A stretch of DNA of 64,000 nt from Longicatena caecimuris (lineage in GTDB: Bacteria; Bacillota_I; Bacilli_A; Erysipelotrichales; Erysipelotrichaceae), in contig NZ_SMBP01000002.1 in NCBI RefSeq assembly GCF_004341945.1, positions 62,001-126,000 on the forward strand, written 5' to 3'. Below the pieces are notes generated by a model. The model made no database searches. It was not told the origin of the DNA and saw nothing but the letters and a program-made list of their open reading frames with translations. This document shows positions 4,600 through 64,000 of this stretch, piece after piece (the first letter of the stretch is position 1; each line of letters opens with the position of its first letter). Position numbers and translations under genes: made by a program.

Positions 4600-5400
4600 C
4601 TAACCTAAAGCTACATCCATGACCATCATCAAAAGGAAACCAAACATCACGCCAGCTGTTCCCGCATGGGTATGTTCTCCTAAATGCGCCTGTGGTATTA
4701 GTTCCTCTACTACGACATACAACATGGCACCTGCCGCAAATGATAACAGCCATGGCATGACCAATGTCGCACCCTGCACAATGGCAACGGTCGCAATTCC
4801 TGCTATGGGCTCTACGATACCGCTTAAGGAACCATATAGGAATGCTTTGCCATTTGAACATCCTTCTTTCTTTAAGGGAAGCGAAATAGCCGCGCCTTCC
4901 GGAAAGTTTTGCAGGCCTATGCCAAGAGCTAAGGAAATGGCTGCCGCTAATGTTACCGATGCCCCAGTTTGTAAAGACATGGCAAATGCTAATCCTACTG
5001 CCATGCCCTCTGGTATATTGTGCAATGTTACGGCAAATACCAGCAAGGTTGTTCGCTTTAGTGAAGATGTTGGACCTTCCGGTTTCTCACTGCCTGGATG
5101 CAGATGAGGTAAAGCATGATCTAAGCCAAACAGAAAAATACCACCTAGGATAAAACCTCCAGCTGCCGGAAGCCAAGGAATCATCCCTAATTCTTCTGCT
5201 TGTTCCATAGCAGGGATTAATAAGCTCCAAACACTTGCGGCTATCATGACACCTGCCGCAAACCCAAGAAAAATTGATTGTACATTTGCTTTTATATCTT
5301 TACGAAAGAAAAAAACCATTGCCGCACCCAAAGTTGTCATAAGAAAGGTAAAACCAGTTCCCAGTGCCGCTAACAGATATGGATTTGTAATTTCCATCAT
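4600..5400 (-). CDS. ZIP-family divalent metal transporter (ZupT/GufA-like)
   Basis: 266 residues with about eight hydrophobic segments. The family signatures HNIPEG and QNFPEG, which carry the metal-binding His and Glu in the two central helices, are both intact. A His-rich stretch (HLGEHTHAG) lies near the last helices. ZIP proteins move Zn2+, Fe2+ or Mn2+ into the cytoplasm; the metal cannot be decided here. A GTGAGGTG ribosome site precedes the start and the gene stands alone between two terminators. Confidence 0.93.
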   Translation of the reverse strand: MMEITNPYLLAALGTGFTFLMTTLGAAMVFFFRKDIKANVQSIFLGFAAGVMIAASVWSLLIPAMEQAEELGMIPWLPAAGGFILGGIFLFGLDHALPHLHPGSEKPEGPTSSLKRTTLLVFAVTLHNIPEGMAVGLAFAMSLQTGASVTLAAAISLALGIGLQNFPEGAAISLPLKKEGCSNGKAFLYGSLSGIVEPIAGIATVAIVQGATLVMPWLLSFAAGAMLYVVVEELIPQAHLGEHTHAGTAGVMFGFLLMMVMDVALG

Positions 5401-5527
5401 AACACCTCACTTTATTACATATAGTATAGCGTAAGTAAGCTAAAGATAACATTAAAACGCCCAAAACCTTCCTTTTTCTTACCAAATATGTGTATGTTAT
5501 GATTTTTCATATCTGTTTCCAAGTAAA

Positions 5528-5577
5528 AACCGTAACATCAATAGAAATGATACGGCATTTTCTATACTGTTACGGTT
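5528..5577 (-). terminator. Possible terminator of the PocR-domain gene
   Basis: A perfect 10-base inverted repeat (AACCGTAACA / TGTTACGGTT) with a 30-base loop lies just after the gene stop. There is no clear T-run on the minus strand, so termination is uncertain. Confidence 0.4.
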
Positions 5578-5592
5578 ATATACTTATTTATC

Positions 5593-6099
5593 TTACATTT
5601 CTTTTGCAAATGTGAAATGATAGTTCAAAAGATCCTTTAATAATTGAATAGAGGCATTCATTTCTGACTCATCCATTGTTTTAATAACCTTAAAATTATG
5701 CAACAACATACCTTCATCAAGTTTATATTCACTGCTGAGATAATTTGCCCAGCGATCCGCCTCTTCTTTTTGTTTTTGTGCTAAGATGCCTTCCGATACA
5801 ATCACACAATGATACTCCTTATAATTAACAGGAACCGCCCATTTGATCAAACCAGCATGACAAGAATAAATACATTCTTTATCAATCTGGCGTGCATTTT
5901 CATACGTTTCCTTAGTACATTCTTCACACTTTTCCAATGCCTTGCTTGAAATCTTAAGACATTTACAAAAATAATTTTTCTCTGATGCACTCTGAATCAC
6001 CGTATTATCCTCAACGATATAAGAGCGCAGTCCGGTAATTCTCTGATAATCATCTAGCGCATGTTTTACTATTTGCTTTTCATCCATCATCTTTATCAC
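5593..6099 (-). CDS. Stand-alone PocR-type sensory domain protein
   Basis: 168 residues resembling the PocR ligand-binding/sensor domain, a PAS-like fold normally attached to an output domain. Visible features are a Cys cluster (FCKCLKISSKALEKCEECTKE), YSCHAGLIKWAVPV and a following glycine-containing strand (VSEGILAQ). No HTH, kinase or GGDEF partner is attached. The protein may work as a separate sensory subunit or redox/metal-responsive protein. Start choice is open: the first ATG is kept, but Met4 or Met5 lies at better distance from AAAGGGTG. Confidence 0.75.
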   Translation of the reverse strand: MIKMMDEKQIVKHALDDYQRITGLRSYIVEDNTVIQSASEKNYFCKCLKISSKALEKCEECTKETYENARQIDKECIYSCHAGLIKWAVPVNYKEYHCVIVSEGILAQKQKEEADRWANYLSSEYKLDEGMLLHNFKVIKTMDESEMNASIQLLKDLLNYHFTFAKEM

Positions 6100-6165
6100 C
6101 CTTTATCTTTCCTCTTCGTACTTTCAAATATATCATATTTTCATAAAAATGGCTACCGGATTCCG

Positions 6166-6849
6166 TTATATTGTAAACGTTTCCATATCTTTTCTAATCT
6201 TTTGGATACGCTTTGCATATGCTTTTACTTCATCTCTTTTACATAATTTCTCTACTATATCATATTGATCCCACATATGCATCGGGATGATATGCTTTGC
6301 ATCACTATACTGCATAAAACAGCTGACACCTTTATAAAACCCTTTAATAAGACGTGGATCAACTGGTAAAAATGCCACATCCATCTGGTAACGACTAAGT
6401 TTTTTCATTGCTTTACGATATGCTGTTTCCATTTGTTGAGCCTCTTCTTCACTGTCTTCCTCACCCCAATCCCACCAATTTAAATCTCCAGCATGATAGA
6501 TGATATTTTGTTCACACATCACAAGGAAAGCAACACCTTCATCTGTGGATGCAATCGTTTTTACTTGCAAATCATCCACTTCATATATCTGGTCACAAGC
6601 GCATACCAAAACGTCCTTACGATCCTTACAAGGAACATTATCACTGATCAGATAATGTACATCTGGATGAATTTTGGCTAATGTGAAAATCGCTTCATGG
6701 AAATGATCTTCATGATGATGAGAGACAAAGACATATAGTGGCTTATCTTTCGGTAGTTCACAAAGTGGCGTATTGACCCAATCAAACAATAGCAGATGAT
6801 GTTTTAATTCAATAAGAAAGGCACTGTGATGTAAATACGTAATTTTCAT
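6166..6849 (-). CDS. Metallo-beta-lactamase-fold hydrolase (UlaG-like)
   Basis: 227 residues. The metal-binding motif reads VSHHHEDHFH (HxHxDH), followed by a later His-Asp (YHAGDLNWWDW) and a C-terminal His (IIPMHMWDQ), so a complete dinuclear site is likely. N-terminal YLHHSAFLIEL is typical of the UlaG/YycJ-like branch. The substrate is unknown; the family includes L-ascorbate-6-phosphate lactonase and various phosphodiesterases. Single gene on the minus strand. Confidence 0.85.
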   Translation of the reverse strand: MKITYLHHSAFLIELKHHLLLFDWVNTPLCELPKDKPLYVFVSHHHEDHFHEAIFTLAKIHPDVHYLISDNVPCKDRKDVLVCACDQIYEVDDLQVKTIASTDEGVAFLVMCEQNIIYHAGDLNWWDWGEEDSEEEAQQMETAYRKAMKKLSRYQMDVAFLPVDPRLIKGFYKGVSCFMQYSDAKHIIPMHMWDQYDIVEKLCKRDEVKAYAKRIQKIRKDMETFTI

Positions 6850-6982
6850 GAGTAACTACCTCCGCTTTTCTATATCTTATCTTAAGTTTTAAAAATACAC
6901 AATAAATTCATATTTTCATGCTACTTGCCAAATGCTTTCTGCATAAACTATAATAGCATCATAACAGAAAGGAGTGTTTATT

Positions 6983-7489
6983 ATGAACGCTTTACAAATC
7001 ATAGAGCCAGAAAAACTGCATGGAGATGTCTTTACCATGATTGGCAAAGAGTGGATGCTGGTAACAGCAAAAAAGGATGGACGTGTCAACACCATGACCG
7101 CTTCCTGGGGTGGTATGGGAATTTTATGGAACAAAAAAGTCGCTTATATCTTTATCCGTCCGCAACGCTATACGAAGGAATTTATCGATGGAAGTGAGCG
7201 ATTGACATTATCCTTTTATGATGAAGAATATCGTAAGCAATTAAGTTATTGCGGTACTGTTTCGGGAAAAGATGAAGATAAGATCACAAAAGCCGGTTTC
7301 CATATTGCTCATCATCATGATGTTCCTTACTTTGAAGAAGCGAATACGGTACTGGTATGCCGTAAGCTGTATGCACAAGAATTAAGCGAAGCGTGCTTCT
7401 TGGATAGCTCCTTAATTGAGAAAAACTATCCATTAAAAGACTACCATACGATGTATGTCGTTGAAATTGAAGAAGCCCTAGCACGCTAA
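6983..7489 (+). CDS. Flavin reductase-like (flavoredoxin) domain protein
   Basis: 168 residues from the ATG at 6983, chosen because AAAGGAGTG lies 6-7 bases before it; an in-frame GTG nine bases upstream overlaps the ribosome site. The pattern GRVNTMTASWGGMG with YIFIRPQRYTKEFI is that of small FMN-binding flavin-reductase/flavoredoxin proteins in anaerobes, which pass electrons between flavins or ferredoxin and other acceptors. It stands alone. Confidence 0.85.
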   Translation: MNALQIIEPEKLHGDVFTMIGKEWMLVTAKKDGRVNTMTASWGGMGILWNKKVAYIFIRPQRYTKEFIDGSERLTLSFYDEEYRKQLSYCGTVSGKDEDKITKAGFHIAHHHDVPYFEEANTVLVCRKLYAQELSEACFLDSSLIEKNYPLKDYHTMYVVEIEEALAR

Positions 7490-7504
7490 AAACACAAAAT
7501 AAAA

Positions 7505-7542
7505 GATGGAATGTATTTCTTAAAAAATACACTCCATTTTTT
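7505..7542. terminator. Shared terminator between convergent genes
   Basis: ATGGAATGTATTT and AAATACACTCCAT form a 13-base stem with one imperfect pair, followed by a T-run on the plus strand. It lies between two converging genes. Confidence 0.7.
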
Positions 7543-57052: not shown

Positions 57053-57113
57053 ACCTATGGTTGCTCATGAAACTCTTCATGACTGGCATTGTGTAAATAA
57101 GGAGGAAATGTAC

Positions 57114-59015
57114 ATGCTTTTTCAAACAACCAAGAAACAAGAAGACCTACGGAAAAAAGTACGCGAATTTGCGGAAAGCGAAGTAAAGCCAATTGCCTTT
57201 TTGCTAGATAAGGAAAATGAATTCCCTAGCGAAGCAATTGCCAAATTTGCCGACATGGGAATGATGGGTTTGCCTTATCCCAAAGAATATGGCGGTGCAG
57301 GAGCAGATGTCTTAAGCTATGCGATTGCAGTAGAAGAATTATCCAGAGTTGATGGAGGAACCGGTGTCATCTTATCAGCACATGTATCTTTAGGAAGCTA
57401 TCCAATTTTTGCGTTTGGTAATGAAGAACAAAAACAGAAATATTTAACACCTTTAGCAAAGGGTGAAAAACTTGGTGCTTTTGGGTTAACAGAACCAAAT
57501 GCCGGTAGTGATGCAGGTGGAACAGAAACAACGGCAGTATTAGAGGGTGATCATTATATCTTAAACGGTGGTAAAATCTTTATTACCAATGCGCCGGTAG
57601 CTGATACGTATGTTGTCTTTGCCTCAACAAATCCGGATGCCGGAACACATGGTATCTCTGCTTTCATCGTTGAAAAAGGATGGGAAGGCTTCACCTTTGG
57701 AGATCATTACGATAAGATGGGCATTCGCTCTTCTTCCACTGCGGAATTAATCTTTAATAATGTAAAAGTACCAAAAGAAAACCTGTTAGGTAAAGAAGGA
57801 CAAGGCTTTAAGATTGCAATGGCTACGCTTGATGGCGGTCGTATCGGAATTGCTGCACAGGCATTAGGTATTGCTCAGGGTGCTTATGAACATGCTTTAG
57901 AATATGCTAAAGAGCGTATTCAGTTTGGCAAACCAATTGCCCAACAACAGGCAATTTCCTTTAAACTAGCTGATATGGCAACCAAATTACGCTGTGCTAG
58001 ATTCCTTGTTTACAGTGCTGCTGAATTAAAAGAAGCCCATGAACCTTATGGCATGGAGAGTGCTATGGCTAAACAATATACCTCAGACATCTGCTTAGAG
58101 GTTGTCAATGATGCTTTACAGATCTTTGGCGGCAGCGGCTATTTAAAGGGTATGGAAGTCGAACGTGCTTATCGTGATGCGAAAATCTGTACAATCTATG
58201 AAGGTACCAATGAAATTCAGCGTGTTGTTATTGCGTCCCATATCATCGGTAAGATGAAAAAGGATGGTAAGGCAAAACGGAAAAAAACATCGATTACCGG
58301 TGAGCGTAAGAAAATGATCTTCCGTGATGGTACACCAAAAGAACAAGTCGCAAAACTAGTTGAAGCATTGAAGAAAGATGGTTATGATTTCAGTGTAGGC
58401 ATTGCGATGGATACTCCAATCGTCGATGCAGAACGTGTGATCAGTGCCGGTAAAGGTATTGGCGCAAAAGAAAACATGAAATTAATTGAAGAAGCTGCGA
58501 AAGCACTAGGTGCTGCGATTGGTTCATCTCGTCCGGTTGCGGAAACTTTGAAATATGTGCCATTAAATCGCTATGTTGGTATGAGTGGACAGAAGTTTAG
58601 CGGCAATCTATATGTGGCTTGTGGTATCAGCGGTGCCGGTCAGCATTTAAAAGGTATTAAGGATGCGACAACCATCGTTGCCATCAACAACAATCCAAAC
58701 GCTCCAATCTTTAAGAATGCCGATTATGGTATTGTAGGTGATTTGATGGAAATCTTACCTTTGTTAGCGGAAGCTTTGGATACGGGTGTAAAACAGCCGG
58801 CTCCACCAATGAAGAAGATGAAACGTCCATTTATCAAGAAAGAAGGACCTTCTTATAAACGCTATATCTGCAGTGGCTGCGGCTATGAATATGATATGGA
58901 AATCGGCGATCCGGCAAGTGATGTACCTGCAGGAACAACCTTTGATAAACTACCAGAAGAATGGATTTGTCCAGAATGCGGTGAAGAAAAAGAAAACTTC
59001 ATCGAGATTGAATAG
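57114..59015 (+). CDS. Acyl-CoA dehydrogenase-ETF alpha domain-rubredoxin fusion
   Basis: 633 residues from the ATG at 57114 (AAGGAGG with 8 bases; the ATG at 57108 is too close). Residues 1-380 are a full acyl-CoA dehydrogenase (GAFGLTEPNAGSDA; catalytic Glu region IYEGTNEIQR). Residues about 395-570 match the C-terminal FAD domain of ETF alpha (RPVAETLKYVPLNRYVGMSG, ACGISGAGQHLKGI, IFKNADYGIVGDL). Residues 580-633 are a rubredoxin with Cys at 586, 589, 619 and 622. Electrons could pass acyl-CoA, FAD, ETF-FAD, rubredoxin in one chain and then to the flavodiiron protein encoded 14 bases downstream. Confidence 0.95.
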   Translation: MLFQTTKKQEDLRKKVREFAESEVKPIAFLLDKENEFPSEAIAKFADMGMMGLPYPKEYGGAGADVLSYAIAVEELSRVDGGTGVILSAHVSLGSYPIFAFGNEEQKQKYLTPLAKGEKLGAFGLTEPNAGSDAGGTETTAVLEGDHYILNGGKIFITNAPVADTYVVFASTNPDAGTHGISAFIVEKGWEGFTFGDHYDKMGIRSSSTAELIFNNVKVPKENLLGKEGQGFKIAMATLDGGRIGIAAQALGIAQGAYEHALEYAKERIQFGKPIAQQQAISFKLADMATKLRCARFLVYSAAELKEAHEPYGMESAMAKQYTSDICLEVVNDALQIFGGSGYLKGMEVERAYRDAKICTIYEGTNEIQRVVIASHIIGKMKKDGKAKRKKTSITGERKKMIFRDGTPKEQVAKLVEALKKDGYDFSVGIAMDTPIVDAERVISAGKGIGAKENMKLIEEAAKALGAAIGSSRPVAETLKYVPLNRYVGMSGQKFSGNLYVACGISGAGQHLKGIKDATTIVAINNNPNAPIFKNADYGIVGDLMEILPLLAEALDTGVKQPAPPMKKMKRPFIKKEGPSYKRYICSGCGYEYDMEIGDPASDVPAGTTFDKLPEEWICPECGEEKENFIEIE

Positions 59016-59029
59016 GAGGAAAAAGACGT

Positions 59030-60238
59030 ATGTATTGTGTAAGAAAAGTTGTAGATGATCTGTATTGGGTAGGCGGTAATGACCATCGCTTAGCACTATT
59101 TGAAAATATTCATCCGATTCCTCGCGGCGTATCCTATAACTCCTATTTGCTGCTGGATGAAAAAACCGTTCTCTTTGATACCGTAGATTGGTCCATCTGC
59201 CGTCAGTTCTTAGAAAATGTGGAACATGTGTTAGATGGCCGTGACTTAGATTATTTGGTAATCAATCATATGGAACCTGATCATGGTGCCAGCATTGAAG
59301 AAATCTTGTTGCGTTATCCAAATGTTACCATCATTTCCACAGAGAAAAGTATCATGTTGATGCATCAATTTGGCTTTGATGTTGATGATAAGACCATGAC
59401 GGTAAAGGAAGGCGATTCCTTTCGCTTCGGTAAACATAACATCGTCTTCGTGGAAGCTCCTATGGTCCATTGGCCAGAAGCAATGGTTAGCTTTGATACA
59501 ACTGATGGCATTCTCTTCTCTGCCGATGCCTTTGGCTCCTTTGGTGCCTTAGATGGCAAACTGTTTAATGATGAAGTGAACTTTGACCGTGATTGGATCG
59601 ATGATGCTCGTCGCTATTATACCAACATCGTTGGTAAATACGGTCCACATGTACAAGCCTTGTTAAAGAAAGCCTCCACCTTGGATATCCACTATATCTG
59701 TCCGCTACATGGACCGGTATGGCGCAATGACTTTGGCTATCTATTGGATAAATATGATAAATGGAGTCGTTATGAACCAGAAACATGCGGTGTGATGATT
59801 GCTTATGCATCTATGTATGGAAATACTGAAAGTGCTGTACAGGTATTAGCTGCGAAATTGGCAGAAAAAGGCATGACCAATATTGCCTTATATGATGTAT
59901 CAAATACCCATGTATCCTACCTCATCAGTGAAACCTTTAAATATAGTCATATCGTTTTAGCAAGTGTTACCTATAATCTAGGTATTTATCCGGTAATGCA
60001 TGATTATCTGATGCATATGAAGGCATTAAACCTACAGAAACGTACCGTAGGTATCATTGAAAATGGTTCTTGGGCACCAAAATCCGGTTCTTTGATGAAA
60101 GAATTCTTGGATGAAGAGATGAAACAGATGAGCATTCTTAACAGTGAAGTCAATATGATTTCTGCCTTAAATGACAACAATGCAAATGAAGTTGATAATT
60201 TAGTAGAAAGCATCCTTGATTCCATGAAAGAAGCATAG
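59030..60238 (+). CDS. Flavodiiron protein (FprA-type O2/NO reductase)
   Basis: 402 residues, class A layout. The beta-lactamase-like part has diiron ligands His80, Glu82, Asp84, His85 (NHMEPDHGAS), His147 (VHWPEAM), Asp166 (SADAFG) and His227 (PLHGPVW). The flavodoxin part (from about 253) begins GVMIAYASMYGNTESAV. It reduces O2 to water or NO to N2O with electrons from rubredoxin, in the cytoplasm. Co-transcribed with the fusion protein that carries such a rubredoxin. Confidence 0.95.
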   Translation: MYCVRKVVDDLYWVGGNDHRLALFENIHPIPRGVSYNSYLLLDEKTVLFDTVDWSICRQFLENVEHVLDGRDLDYLVINHMEPDHGASIEEILLRYPNVTIISTEKSIMLMHQFGFDVDDKTMTVKEGDSFRFGKHNIVFVEAPMVHWPEAMVSFDTTDGILFSADAFGSFGALDGKLFNDEVNFDRDWIDDARRYYTNIVGKYGPHVQALLKKASTLDIHYICPLHGPVWRNDFGYLLDKYDKWSRYEPETCGVMIAYASMYGNTESAVQVLAAKLAEKGMTNIALYDVSNTHVSYLISETFKYSHIVLASVTYNLGIYPVMHDYLMHMKALNLQKRTVGIIENGSWAPKSGSLMKEFLDEEMKQMSILNSEVNMISALNDNNANEVDNLVESILDSMKEA

Positions 60239-62104: not shown

Positions 62105-64000
62105 TTACTTATCTTTTTTCACATCTTTTTGTTCCCTTAAAGCCGTCAATGCTTGATGACGGAAAACGGGTTGTTGCTTATATTCTTGTGAAGAAATTCG
62201 ATGATGTTCCTCGACCTCTTTTTGAAATTCTCTGGCAGAAATTCTTTGTGCTCCCTGACCGATAACAATTAGCTGTTCCAAACCATCACTTGTTGCGACA
62301 CGGACACGATACTCCTTTGCCAACTTATGTGTAGCCATCTCGATGTAGTTATCTGCTGTCTGTGAAGTTTTCGTATACACAACATGTATATTTCCGTGCT
62401 TTCTGATTGTCTGTGCTGATTGCTTCACGCGATACGCATCAAAGACAAGGATTACCTCACATTTGCGATATCCCTGATAATTATTCAATTTATCAATCAA
62501 GCGATCTCTTGCCGCATCCATCTGATCTTTTGCTAATGCACGCAATTCGTCCCAGTCATAAATAATATTATAACCATCGACCAATAGACATTCTGGTAAG
62601 ATTTTCAGAGTCTTGATTTCCGTAGCAGGTATTTCTTTCCCTGGTTTCCTTTTCGGTTGTTTTTTATCCTTTGGCTTTCCATAAATACTTTCAAAAACAC
62701 GCTGTAATTCTTTCTCATCAACCTTTGTATTTTCATGTTTGAAACTTGTTTCAGAAGGAGATTGCCTACGTAATGGTAAATGCATATAGTCTTCTACTTT
62801 ATCCCATGATACCTGATAGCCACTGCCATGCATACAGAATATGGAAGAGGATGGATTATCCAAATCACGTTGTGCATCATAACCAATTTGTGAAATCACA
62901 TCAGCGGCCTGTTGACATGGACGATAGCCATCCAGAAAACAGCTTAATTTCCCTTTTCCGCCAGTATACGATCGCAATTCAAGTTGGTAAGATTGCATAC
63001 ATGCAACAGGAGCTTCCCCTTCTAAAATACATAGATCCTCATCTTGTGACAAAATAGAAAAATGCGCCTTCATGGACTCTAGATCATAGATGAGACGGCT
63101 GAGATGCATCGCTGCCACTTCAGCATGAAAGCGATAATATGGTTCTAAAAGAACGCTTTTTGCTTTCATTAGTCCTTGACGTATCGCACGATATGTCGCC
63201 TGCCGGAAATCACCGCCTTCCGTATGTTTCAGATGTGCTTTTCCACATAATAAAGTGATTTTCATATCCGTTATTGGTGATCCACTCAATACTCCGAGAT
63301 GTTCTTTTTCTTGTATATGATTTAAAATAAGTCGCTGCCAGTGCCGATCCAATTTATCTAATGGAGCAATACTATCTACTTGGATACCACTGCCTGGCGC
63401 AAGTGGTTCCAATAGTAAATGAACTTCCGCGTAATGACGCAATGGTTCATAATGACCGACTCCTTCAACTTCCTGTTCTATCGTTTCCTTATAATTCACC
63501 ATGCCTTCATCAAACGTTACAGAAAGACCCAAACGCTGTGCAATCGTGTATTTCAGTATTTCCATCTGCACTTCACCCATTAGCTGTACACGTATTTCTT
63601 TTTTCATCTCTGAATAAGTAATATGTAACTGTGGATCTTCTTCCATTAAGGGAATTAATTTACGCATCGTCGCAAAAGCATCCGTATTCGCAGGTAAAAC
63701 CATTCGATAATTCATTGCGGCTACACTTTCCACTTCTGTATGATGTTCCTCAAAGCCCAAACCATCTCCTGCCTGCAGCTGACGTATCCCTTTGATAACA
63801 CAGATTTCACCAGGCAATGCTTCCTGAATCACCTCAAAGCGATTGCCACTATACCGCCGTAATTGATCTACTTTTTCTGTATCACTGATCTTCATTTTCG
63901 CTTTCAGGACACCACCACTTACTTTTACATGGGCAAGCCGATTTCCTTGTTCATCATGACTGATTTTATAAATGCGGGCTCCAAACGTATCGCCATATTG
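62105..64000 (-). CDS. Tet(M)/EF-G-like GTPase fused to a NYN (Rae1/YacP-type) nuclease, 5' end outside window
   Basis: The frame stays open to the window edge; 631 residues are visible and the G domain is missing. The first 35 (FGARIYKIS, LAHVKVSGGVL) continue into domain II. The part up to about residue 370 matches domains III-V of ribosomal-protection GTPases (VQLMGEVQMEILKYTIAQRL; LLEPYYRFHAEV). A Lys-rich linker follows. Then comes a YacP-type NYN nuclease: LLVDGYNIIYDW, LVFDAYRV, TADNYIEMATHKLA and ATSDGLEQ, all acidic residues present. Rae1 cuts mRNA in the ribosomal A site, so the fusion may bind stalled ribosomes and cut their mRNA. Confidence 0.9.
   Translation of the reverse strand, partial: QYGDTFGARIYKISHDEQGNRLAHVKVSGGVLKAKMKISDTEKVDQLRRYSGNRFEVIQEALPGEICVIKGIRQLQAGDGLGFEEHHTEVESVAAMNYRMVLPANTDAFATMRKLIPLMEEDPQLHITYSEMKKEIRVQLMGEVQMEILKYTIAQRLGLSVTFDEGMVNYKETIEQEVEGVGHYEPLRHYAEVHLLLEPLAPGSGIQVDSIAPLDKLDRHWQRLILNHIQEKEHLGVLSGSPITDMKITLLCGKAHLKHTEGGDFRQATYRAIRQGLMKAKSVLLEPYYRFHAEVAAMHLSRLIYDLESMKAHFSILSQDEDLCILEGEAPVACMQSYQLELRSYTGGKGKLSCFLDGYRPCQQAADVISQIGYDAQRDLDNPSSSIFCMHGSGYQVSWDKVEDYMHLPLRRQSPSETSFKHENTKVDEKELQRVFESIYGKPKDKKQPKRKPGKEIPATEIKTLKILPECLLVDGYNIIYDWDELRALAKDQMDAARDRLIDKLNNYQGYRKCEVILVFDAYRVKQSAQTIRKHGNIHVVYTKTSQTADNYIEMATHKLAKEYRVRVATSDGLEQLIVIGQGAQRISAREFQKEVEEHHRISSQEYKQQPVFRHQALTALREQKDVKKDK

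Follow-up and report, generated by a model that had tools for sequence, protein, structure and literature searches.

An intact translational GTPase and an intact NYN_YacP nuclease are joined in one chain in Longicatena caecimuris, and the pair is conserved across two phyla, where it represents the only NYN_YacP of most genomes that carry it. On balance, we favor the view that this GTPase, of the EF-G/Tet group of translation factors, carries a Rae1-type endoribonuclease to the ribosome; by analogy with Rae1, the likeliest reading of its activity is the cutting of mRNA in stalled ribosomes. The fusion, often labeled tetracycline resistance, may instead clear blocked ribosomes. The architecture itself is already published: Atkinson 2015 (PMC4342817) describes, for ten species of Clostridiales, the same joining of a Tet-like translational GTPase and a NYN domain of the YacP kind, treats the products as Tet resistance proteins, and offers as a guess either RNase-assisted resistance or an rRNA RNase ability. 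That work is earlier than the description of Rae1 as an A-site nuclease in 2017. According to PMC6613710, Rae1 is an endoribonuclease of the ribosomal A site, and its access may increase when ribosomes stall. New beyond Atkinson 2015 are the occurrence of the fusion in the phylum of L. caecimuris, a separate GTPase clade with another tip loop, a single apparent fusion event, the fusion taking the place of free Rae1, and variants that lack domains IV-V. Among the records listed in searches of open-licence PubMed Central, only Atkinson 2015 concerned this architecture, and no later work on it appeared.

Gene and domain organization

The window, that is, the whole stretch of DNA analyzed (G000:C2:62001-126000 of L. 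caecimuris, contig NZ_SMBP01000002.1; 64,000 nt), holds 631 codons of the gene on its minus strand, in a frame still open at the window end. The whole gene spans G000:C2:124105-126699 (minus), or window positions 62105 to 64699, and encodes 864 aa from an ATG preceded by a plausible ribosome-binding site (Table 1). A preliminary description, drawn from the window, had read Tet(M)-like domains II-V as running in frame into a complete YacP/Rae1-type NYN domain; this was confirmed, with all four acidic residues present. It had also advised reading the upstream 5' part, and had named loss of the GTPase active site as the outcome that would tell against it. That part, taken from the genome beyond the window, encodes an intact G domain with all of its motifs (P-loop HVDAGKTT, DTPGH and NKMD). 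The EF-G-like domains G, II, III, IV and V are thus all found with whole GTPase motifs (EFG_III falling just below its cut-off), and the NYN_YacP match scores 165.6 bits against a curated Pfam cut-off of 24.6.

Table 1. Features of the GTPase-NYN fusion gene and protein, in window coordinates
Feature	Position	Strand	Basis or remark
3' part of GTPase-NYN fusion gene (codons 234-864 + stop)	62105..64000	-	gene start at 64699, outside window
GTP_EFTU (G domain), residues 11-231	outside window (5' part)	-	Pfam
Domain II (EF-G_D2), residues 241-314	63758..63979	-	Pfam
Domain III (EFG_III), residues 348-396	63512..63658	-	Pfam, 26.3 bits vs cut-off 27, slightly under
Domain IV (EFG_IV), residues 400-514; enters A site in EF-G and Tet(M)	63158..63502	-	Pfam
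Domain IV tip loop HLKHTEGGDFR, residues 489-499	63203..63235	-	Leu-Lys-His where Tet(M) has Ser508-Pro509-Val510
Domain V (EFG_C), residues 516-598	62906..63154	-	Pfam
Linker, GTPase body to nuclease, residues 641-704	62588..62779	-	mostly low model confidence, <50 at 648-660 and 676-697
Conserved helix within linker, residues 662-673	62681..62716	-	model and sequence conservation
YacP/Rae1-type NYN nuclease domain, residues 705-849; D708, D754, D783, D805	62153..62587	-	Pfam, alignment

The gene stands alone, with a PurF-like gene and then a terminator-like hairpin upstream, and a small ORF and yaaA downstream; a promoter and terminator scan around it gave results near chance level. The genome also contains smpB and further EF-G-like genes. 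Its one NYN_YacP match is the fusion itself, and no second Rae1 was found in it.

An AlphaFold2 model built from 66 aligned loci (mean pLDDT 89.1, pTM 0.70) is confident in the GTPase body and the NYN domain and low in the linker, except for the helix. In the best alignment, residues 5-608 match ribosome-bound EF-G over 602 residues (Z 40.5, rmsd 11.8 A). EF-G dominates the Foldseek and VIA matches listed for the body, where Tet(M) (3j25) stands at rank 48 (Z 31.4, rmsd 10.8 A, 584 residues). This fold comparison concerns the GTPase body; the NYN assignment rests on sequence, by a profile match to the B. subtilis YacP/Rae1 structures 5mq8 and 5mq9 (E 5e-42). With Rae1 the fusion shares the NYN_YacP domain and its four conserved Asp, although Rae1 is free-standing (solved chain 181 residues) whereas here it forms the C-terminal domain of a translational GTPase. 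With EF-G it shares domain order and fold, and H489 lies in the column of the EF-G domain IV tip His, but identity is about 26% in the best structure alignments.

Conservation of the two active sites

We aligned 96 fused proteins: that of the window, 37 from its own phylum, 57 of the 78 loci from a clostridial scan, and that of Monoglobus, Holdemania being represented twice. The remaining 21 clostridial loci were left out for a missing 5' end or an unmatched P-loop motif. In the NYN domain D708, G709, Y710, N711, D754, D783 and D805 are invariant (96/96); D708, D754, D783 and D805 align with Rae1 D7, D53, D81 and D104, which we take to be its catalytic residues. In the G domain D21, K24, T25, I62, T63, D82, T83, P84, G85, K137 and D139 are kept in all 96, a count that is partly selected at the P-loop because the clostridial rows were picked by that motif. 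H86 is His in 95, and at position N136 there is Asn in 84 proteins and Thr in 11. Both active sites thus appear conserved in nearly all of the fused proteins, and their residues predict two enzymes whose joining has been maintained across two phyla.

Distribution of the fusion

The fusion occurs widely, both among Clostridia and within the phylum of L. caecimuris. A NYN_YacP match was found in 87 of 145 genomes of its own family, of which Holdemania massiliensis (G077, L156) is a member carrying a match; 77 of the 90 matches listed sit in open frames longer than 800 aa, one such match (G028) being partial and in a frame without the GTPase. At the level of the phylum, 38 of 392 genomes have a NYN_YacP over the cut-off, in a frame exceeding 800 aa in 36; the two exceptions lack domains IV-V (G002) or have a split gene (G074). 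The class of Anaerostipes (L107, G586) yielded matches over the cut-off in 217 of 341 genomes. Among the 150 clostridial matches listed, 85 are in frames of more than 800 aa, 57 are free-standing (220 aa or less) and 8 lie between; in these matches, G932 alone among 148 clostridial genomes has both the fused and the free form.

When public genomes were scanned with the profile of domains IV-V, at least 593 relatives were returned. Eighty loci were kept: 78 fused in one reading frame (including L121 and L148, where frame breaks were seen), one running off its contig (L153), and one unfused, in Bifidobacterium (L100). A chance joining or an assembly joint is ruled out by these 78 of 80 loci, in which domain IV-V and NYN share a frame. 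For 20 genomes of named loci, the fusion is the only NYN_YacP over the cut-off in 19, and Bifidobacterium has none; a separate Rae1 is usually absent from fused genomes.

The fusion is a scattered chromosomal gene without common neighbors, and no conserved neighbor gene pointing to rescue was found. A plasmid search with the whole protein (72,556 records) gave two with a place covering at least 80%, one of them Monoglobus (95%); an Agathobacter plasmid homologue, a gene of 933 aa, matched over 74%. The Monoglobus and Agathobacter records are large (250-518 kb). A mobile resistance gene was rejected on the strength of the unshared neighbors, the two plasmid records, and a search that found no Rfam leader RNA upstream of the fusion gene. 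An anti-phage system was likewise rejected, there being no PADLOC match.

Phylogeny, unfused relatives and natural variants

Two quick trees without bootstrap were built. The NYN tree comprised 95 domains (every second clostridial fused one, and 25 free-standing), rooted on B. subtilis Rae1; all fused NYNs fall in one clade (SH-aLRT 97), with two free-standing domains inside it (G074, G845). The GTPase tree comprised 78 GTPases rooted on EF-G, the domain IV-less L085 being left out, and, with four Tet references only, provisionally places the fusion GTPase beside the Tet clade and not within it: Tet(M/O/W)/TetB(P) form a clade (100) whose sister is the subfamily of the fusion (100). Within this subfamily, 12 unfused members make up one clade (93) and all 57 fused members lie in the other (98). 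Bifidobacterium and Ligilactobacillus lie within the latter and seem, from their position, to have lost the nuclease; L257, also inside, merely ends near its contig end. Both trees are most simply read as a single joining of Rae1 to an existing Tet-sister GTPase, probably followed by a few losses and splits.

Of 24 sampled genomes in which NYN_YacP is free-standing, 7 also have an unfused member of the subfamily and the other 17 have no such GTPase; among 123 clostridial genomes lacking any NYN_YacP match, 9 have an unfused member, two of the nine in incomplete frames. The co-occurrence of unfused GTPase and free nuclease (7/24 vs 9/123, Fisher p 0.006) is suggestive only, since the 24 are top-scoring free forms and p ignores kinship. 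Because unfused members exist in both samples, in Bifidobacterium and on Ligilactobacillus plasmids, the GTPase can serve without the nuclease, and its strict dependence on the latter is rejected by the nine genomes without NYN_YacP. The genome G845 carries a free-standing NYN of the fused clade (L238:6787-7359 (-)) and an unfused subfamily GTPase elsewhere (G845:C2:817186-817926). As a separate observation, a nuclease-less member on Ligilactobacillus salivarius megaplasmids (L215:5980-7914 (+)) adjoins rpsN, and its annotation is that of a resistance gene of the TetM family; matches at E 1e-80 or better were obtained in 33 plasmid records of Ligilactobacillus.

Several natural variants are informative. 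Domains IV-V are missing in L085:4843-6627 (-) (G002) and L231:4752-6563 (-) (G091), which retain the G domain, domains II and III, the helix of the linker and NYN; these are two of five examined members of one genus, the others (L232, L233, L089) having all domains. In L077 two separate ORFs (5027-7081 and 7078-7518 (+)), overlapping by GTGA, encode the GTPase and the NYN domain; the linker helix stays on the GTPase ORF, and the tip His is Leu. These forms and the split gene fit a GTPase that would carry the nuclease.

A proposed mechanism and its alternatives

We envision that the GTPase body would bind the factor site of ribosomes with an empty A site, whether drug-blocked, starved or otherwise paused, and that the tethered NYN would cut the A-site mRNA after domain IV withdraws. 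Such a two-step model is needed because domain IV and NYN hardly fit one A site at once; in forms without domains IV-V, the NYN could cut from the position otherwise taken by domain IV. Hydrolysis of GTP would then release the protein, and the truncated message might be handled by tmRNA/SmpB. Binding and GTP-timed release would thus give the nuclease an access and a timing step that free-standing Rae1 does not have. Linkage of the two parts is suggested by the single clades of fused NYNs and of fused GTPases and by the 19 of 20 genomes with the fusion only. The strongest fact contrary to a carrier role is the unfused sister clade, in 7 of 24 and 9 of 123 genomes; G845, with its nuclease of the fused clade apart from a GTPase elsewhere, and the lack of a conserved neighbor pointing to rescue also speak against it. 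So does the KHT-type tip of domain IV, which did not evolve to suit the nuclease, since the unfused sister clade already has it. A bolder formulation, which we advance tentatively as possible rather than probable, sees in the fusion a new kind of ribosome rescue factor in gut Firmicutes: the GTPase would deliver a nuclease to the A site of blocked ribosomes, its hydrolysis of GTP would time or proofread the cleavage of mRNA there, and in L085 and L231 the nuclease would take the place of domain IV itself. Where the nuclease so stands in for domain IV, a translation factor would put a nuclease where EF-G puts its tip.

The unfused relatives lend themselves to another explanation, namely that two ribosome factors were joined for convenience: a Tet/EF-G-like GTPase with a job of its own (e.g. 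freeing A sites) and Rae1, made together and kept near ribosomes with no mechanical coupling. The co-occurrence of unfused GTPase and free nuclease in 7 of 24 genomes, the free nuclease without this GTPase in the other 17, and the apparent nuclease losses in Bifidobacterium and Ligilactobacillus are what it would predict, as is a linker that is long and variable (61-172 residues in 95 proteins). Yet that linker holds a helix conserved in sequence (residues 662-673), the fusion replaces free Rae1 near-exclusively, and GTPase and nuclease stay together even in forms without domains IV-V, such that we regard this explanation as unlikely.

Somewhat less credible still is tetracycline resistance, possibly RNase-assisted, as proposed in Atkinson 2015 (PMC4342817) and as implied by database names. 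NCBI labels some relatives Tet proteins and others translation factor GTPase family, and annotation assigns homologues in Agathobacter and Ligilactobacillus to the TetM/TetW/TetO/TetS family. In favor of this reading, Tet(M) is the nearest characterized structure by sequence, Tet(M)/Tet(O)/Tet(W)/TetB(P) share the EF-G-like five-domain GTPase at about 29-32% identity, and their clade is sister to the subfamily, with both nodes at SH-aLRT 100. Against this stand the tip loop and the profile scores. Pro509 of Tet(M) overlaps bound drug, according to PMC7456112 and PMC8161019; its column holds Lys491 in the window protein, Lys in 93 of the 96 fused proteins, and Pro in none (0/96). Tet proteins have SPVSTPADF or SPASTPADF where the fusion has LKHTEGGDF, with the tip His H492 present in 95 of 96 and missing only from L085, where domain IV is absent altogether. 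The tet_protect model (NF012153) gives the window protein 414 bits against a cut-off of 775 (Tet(M) control, 876), and the four members scored (414, 397, 389 and 378 bits) all fall below it; moreover, forms without domain IV exist and the gene is scattered and chromosomal with unshared neighbors. The claim in the preliminary description of an activity other than tetracycline resistance thereby gains support that is indirect, from a tip without the Pro509 type in all 96 proteins, the missed cut-off and the two species lacking domain IV. Its further proposal, that stalled ribosomes are cleared through mRNA cleavage, would follow reasonably from what Rae1 does.

PIN/NYN nucleases cut diverse RNAs. 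The NYN might act on rRNA or tRNA rather than mRNA, making the protein a ribosome-maturation or ribosome-damage factor, in keeping with the rRNA RNase ability raised in Atkinson 2015 (PMC4342817); we consider this very improbable, given that the best-matching characterized relative, Rae1, is reported in PMC6613710 as an A-site mRNA endonuclease.

Were delivery of the nuclease by the GTPase correct, hundreds of gut bacteria would possess a single-chain factor able both to enter the ribosome in the manner of a translocase and to cut the message inside it, a step met for no translational GTPase in the literature surveyed, and some gut-genome genes now labeled tetracycline resistance would have a housekeeping role in ribosome rescue. 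The split form and the forms without domain IV already provide natural material for testing what the GTPase contributes to the nuclease.

Other loci

Elsewhere in the window, positions 57057-60238 (+) include a gene for a 652-aa protein combining acyl-CoA dehydrogenase, an EtfA FAD-binding domain and rubredoxin (Pfam), followed after 15 bases by that of a flavodiiron-like protein (ODP beta-lactamase fold and flavodoxin); judging from their domains, the two could possibly form an oxygen-reducing unit fed by acyl-CoA. Outside the window, L002:13860-18898 (-) contains two sortase-like genes adjoining adhesin/pilin-like ORFs, as read by eye.
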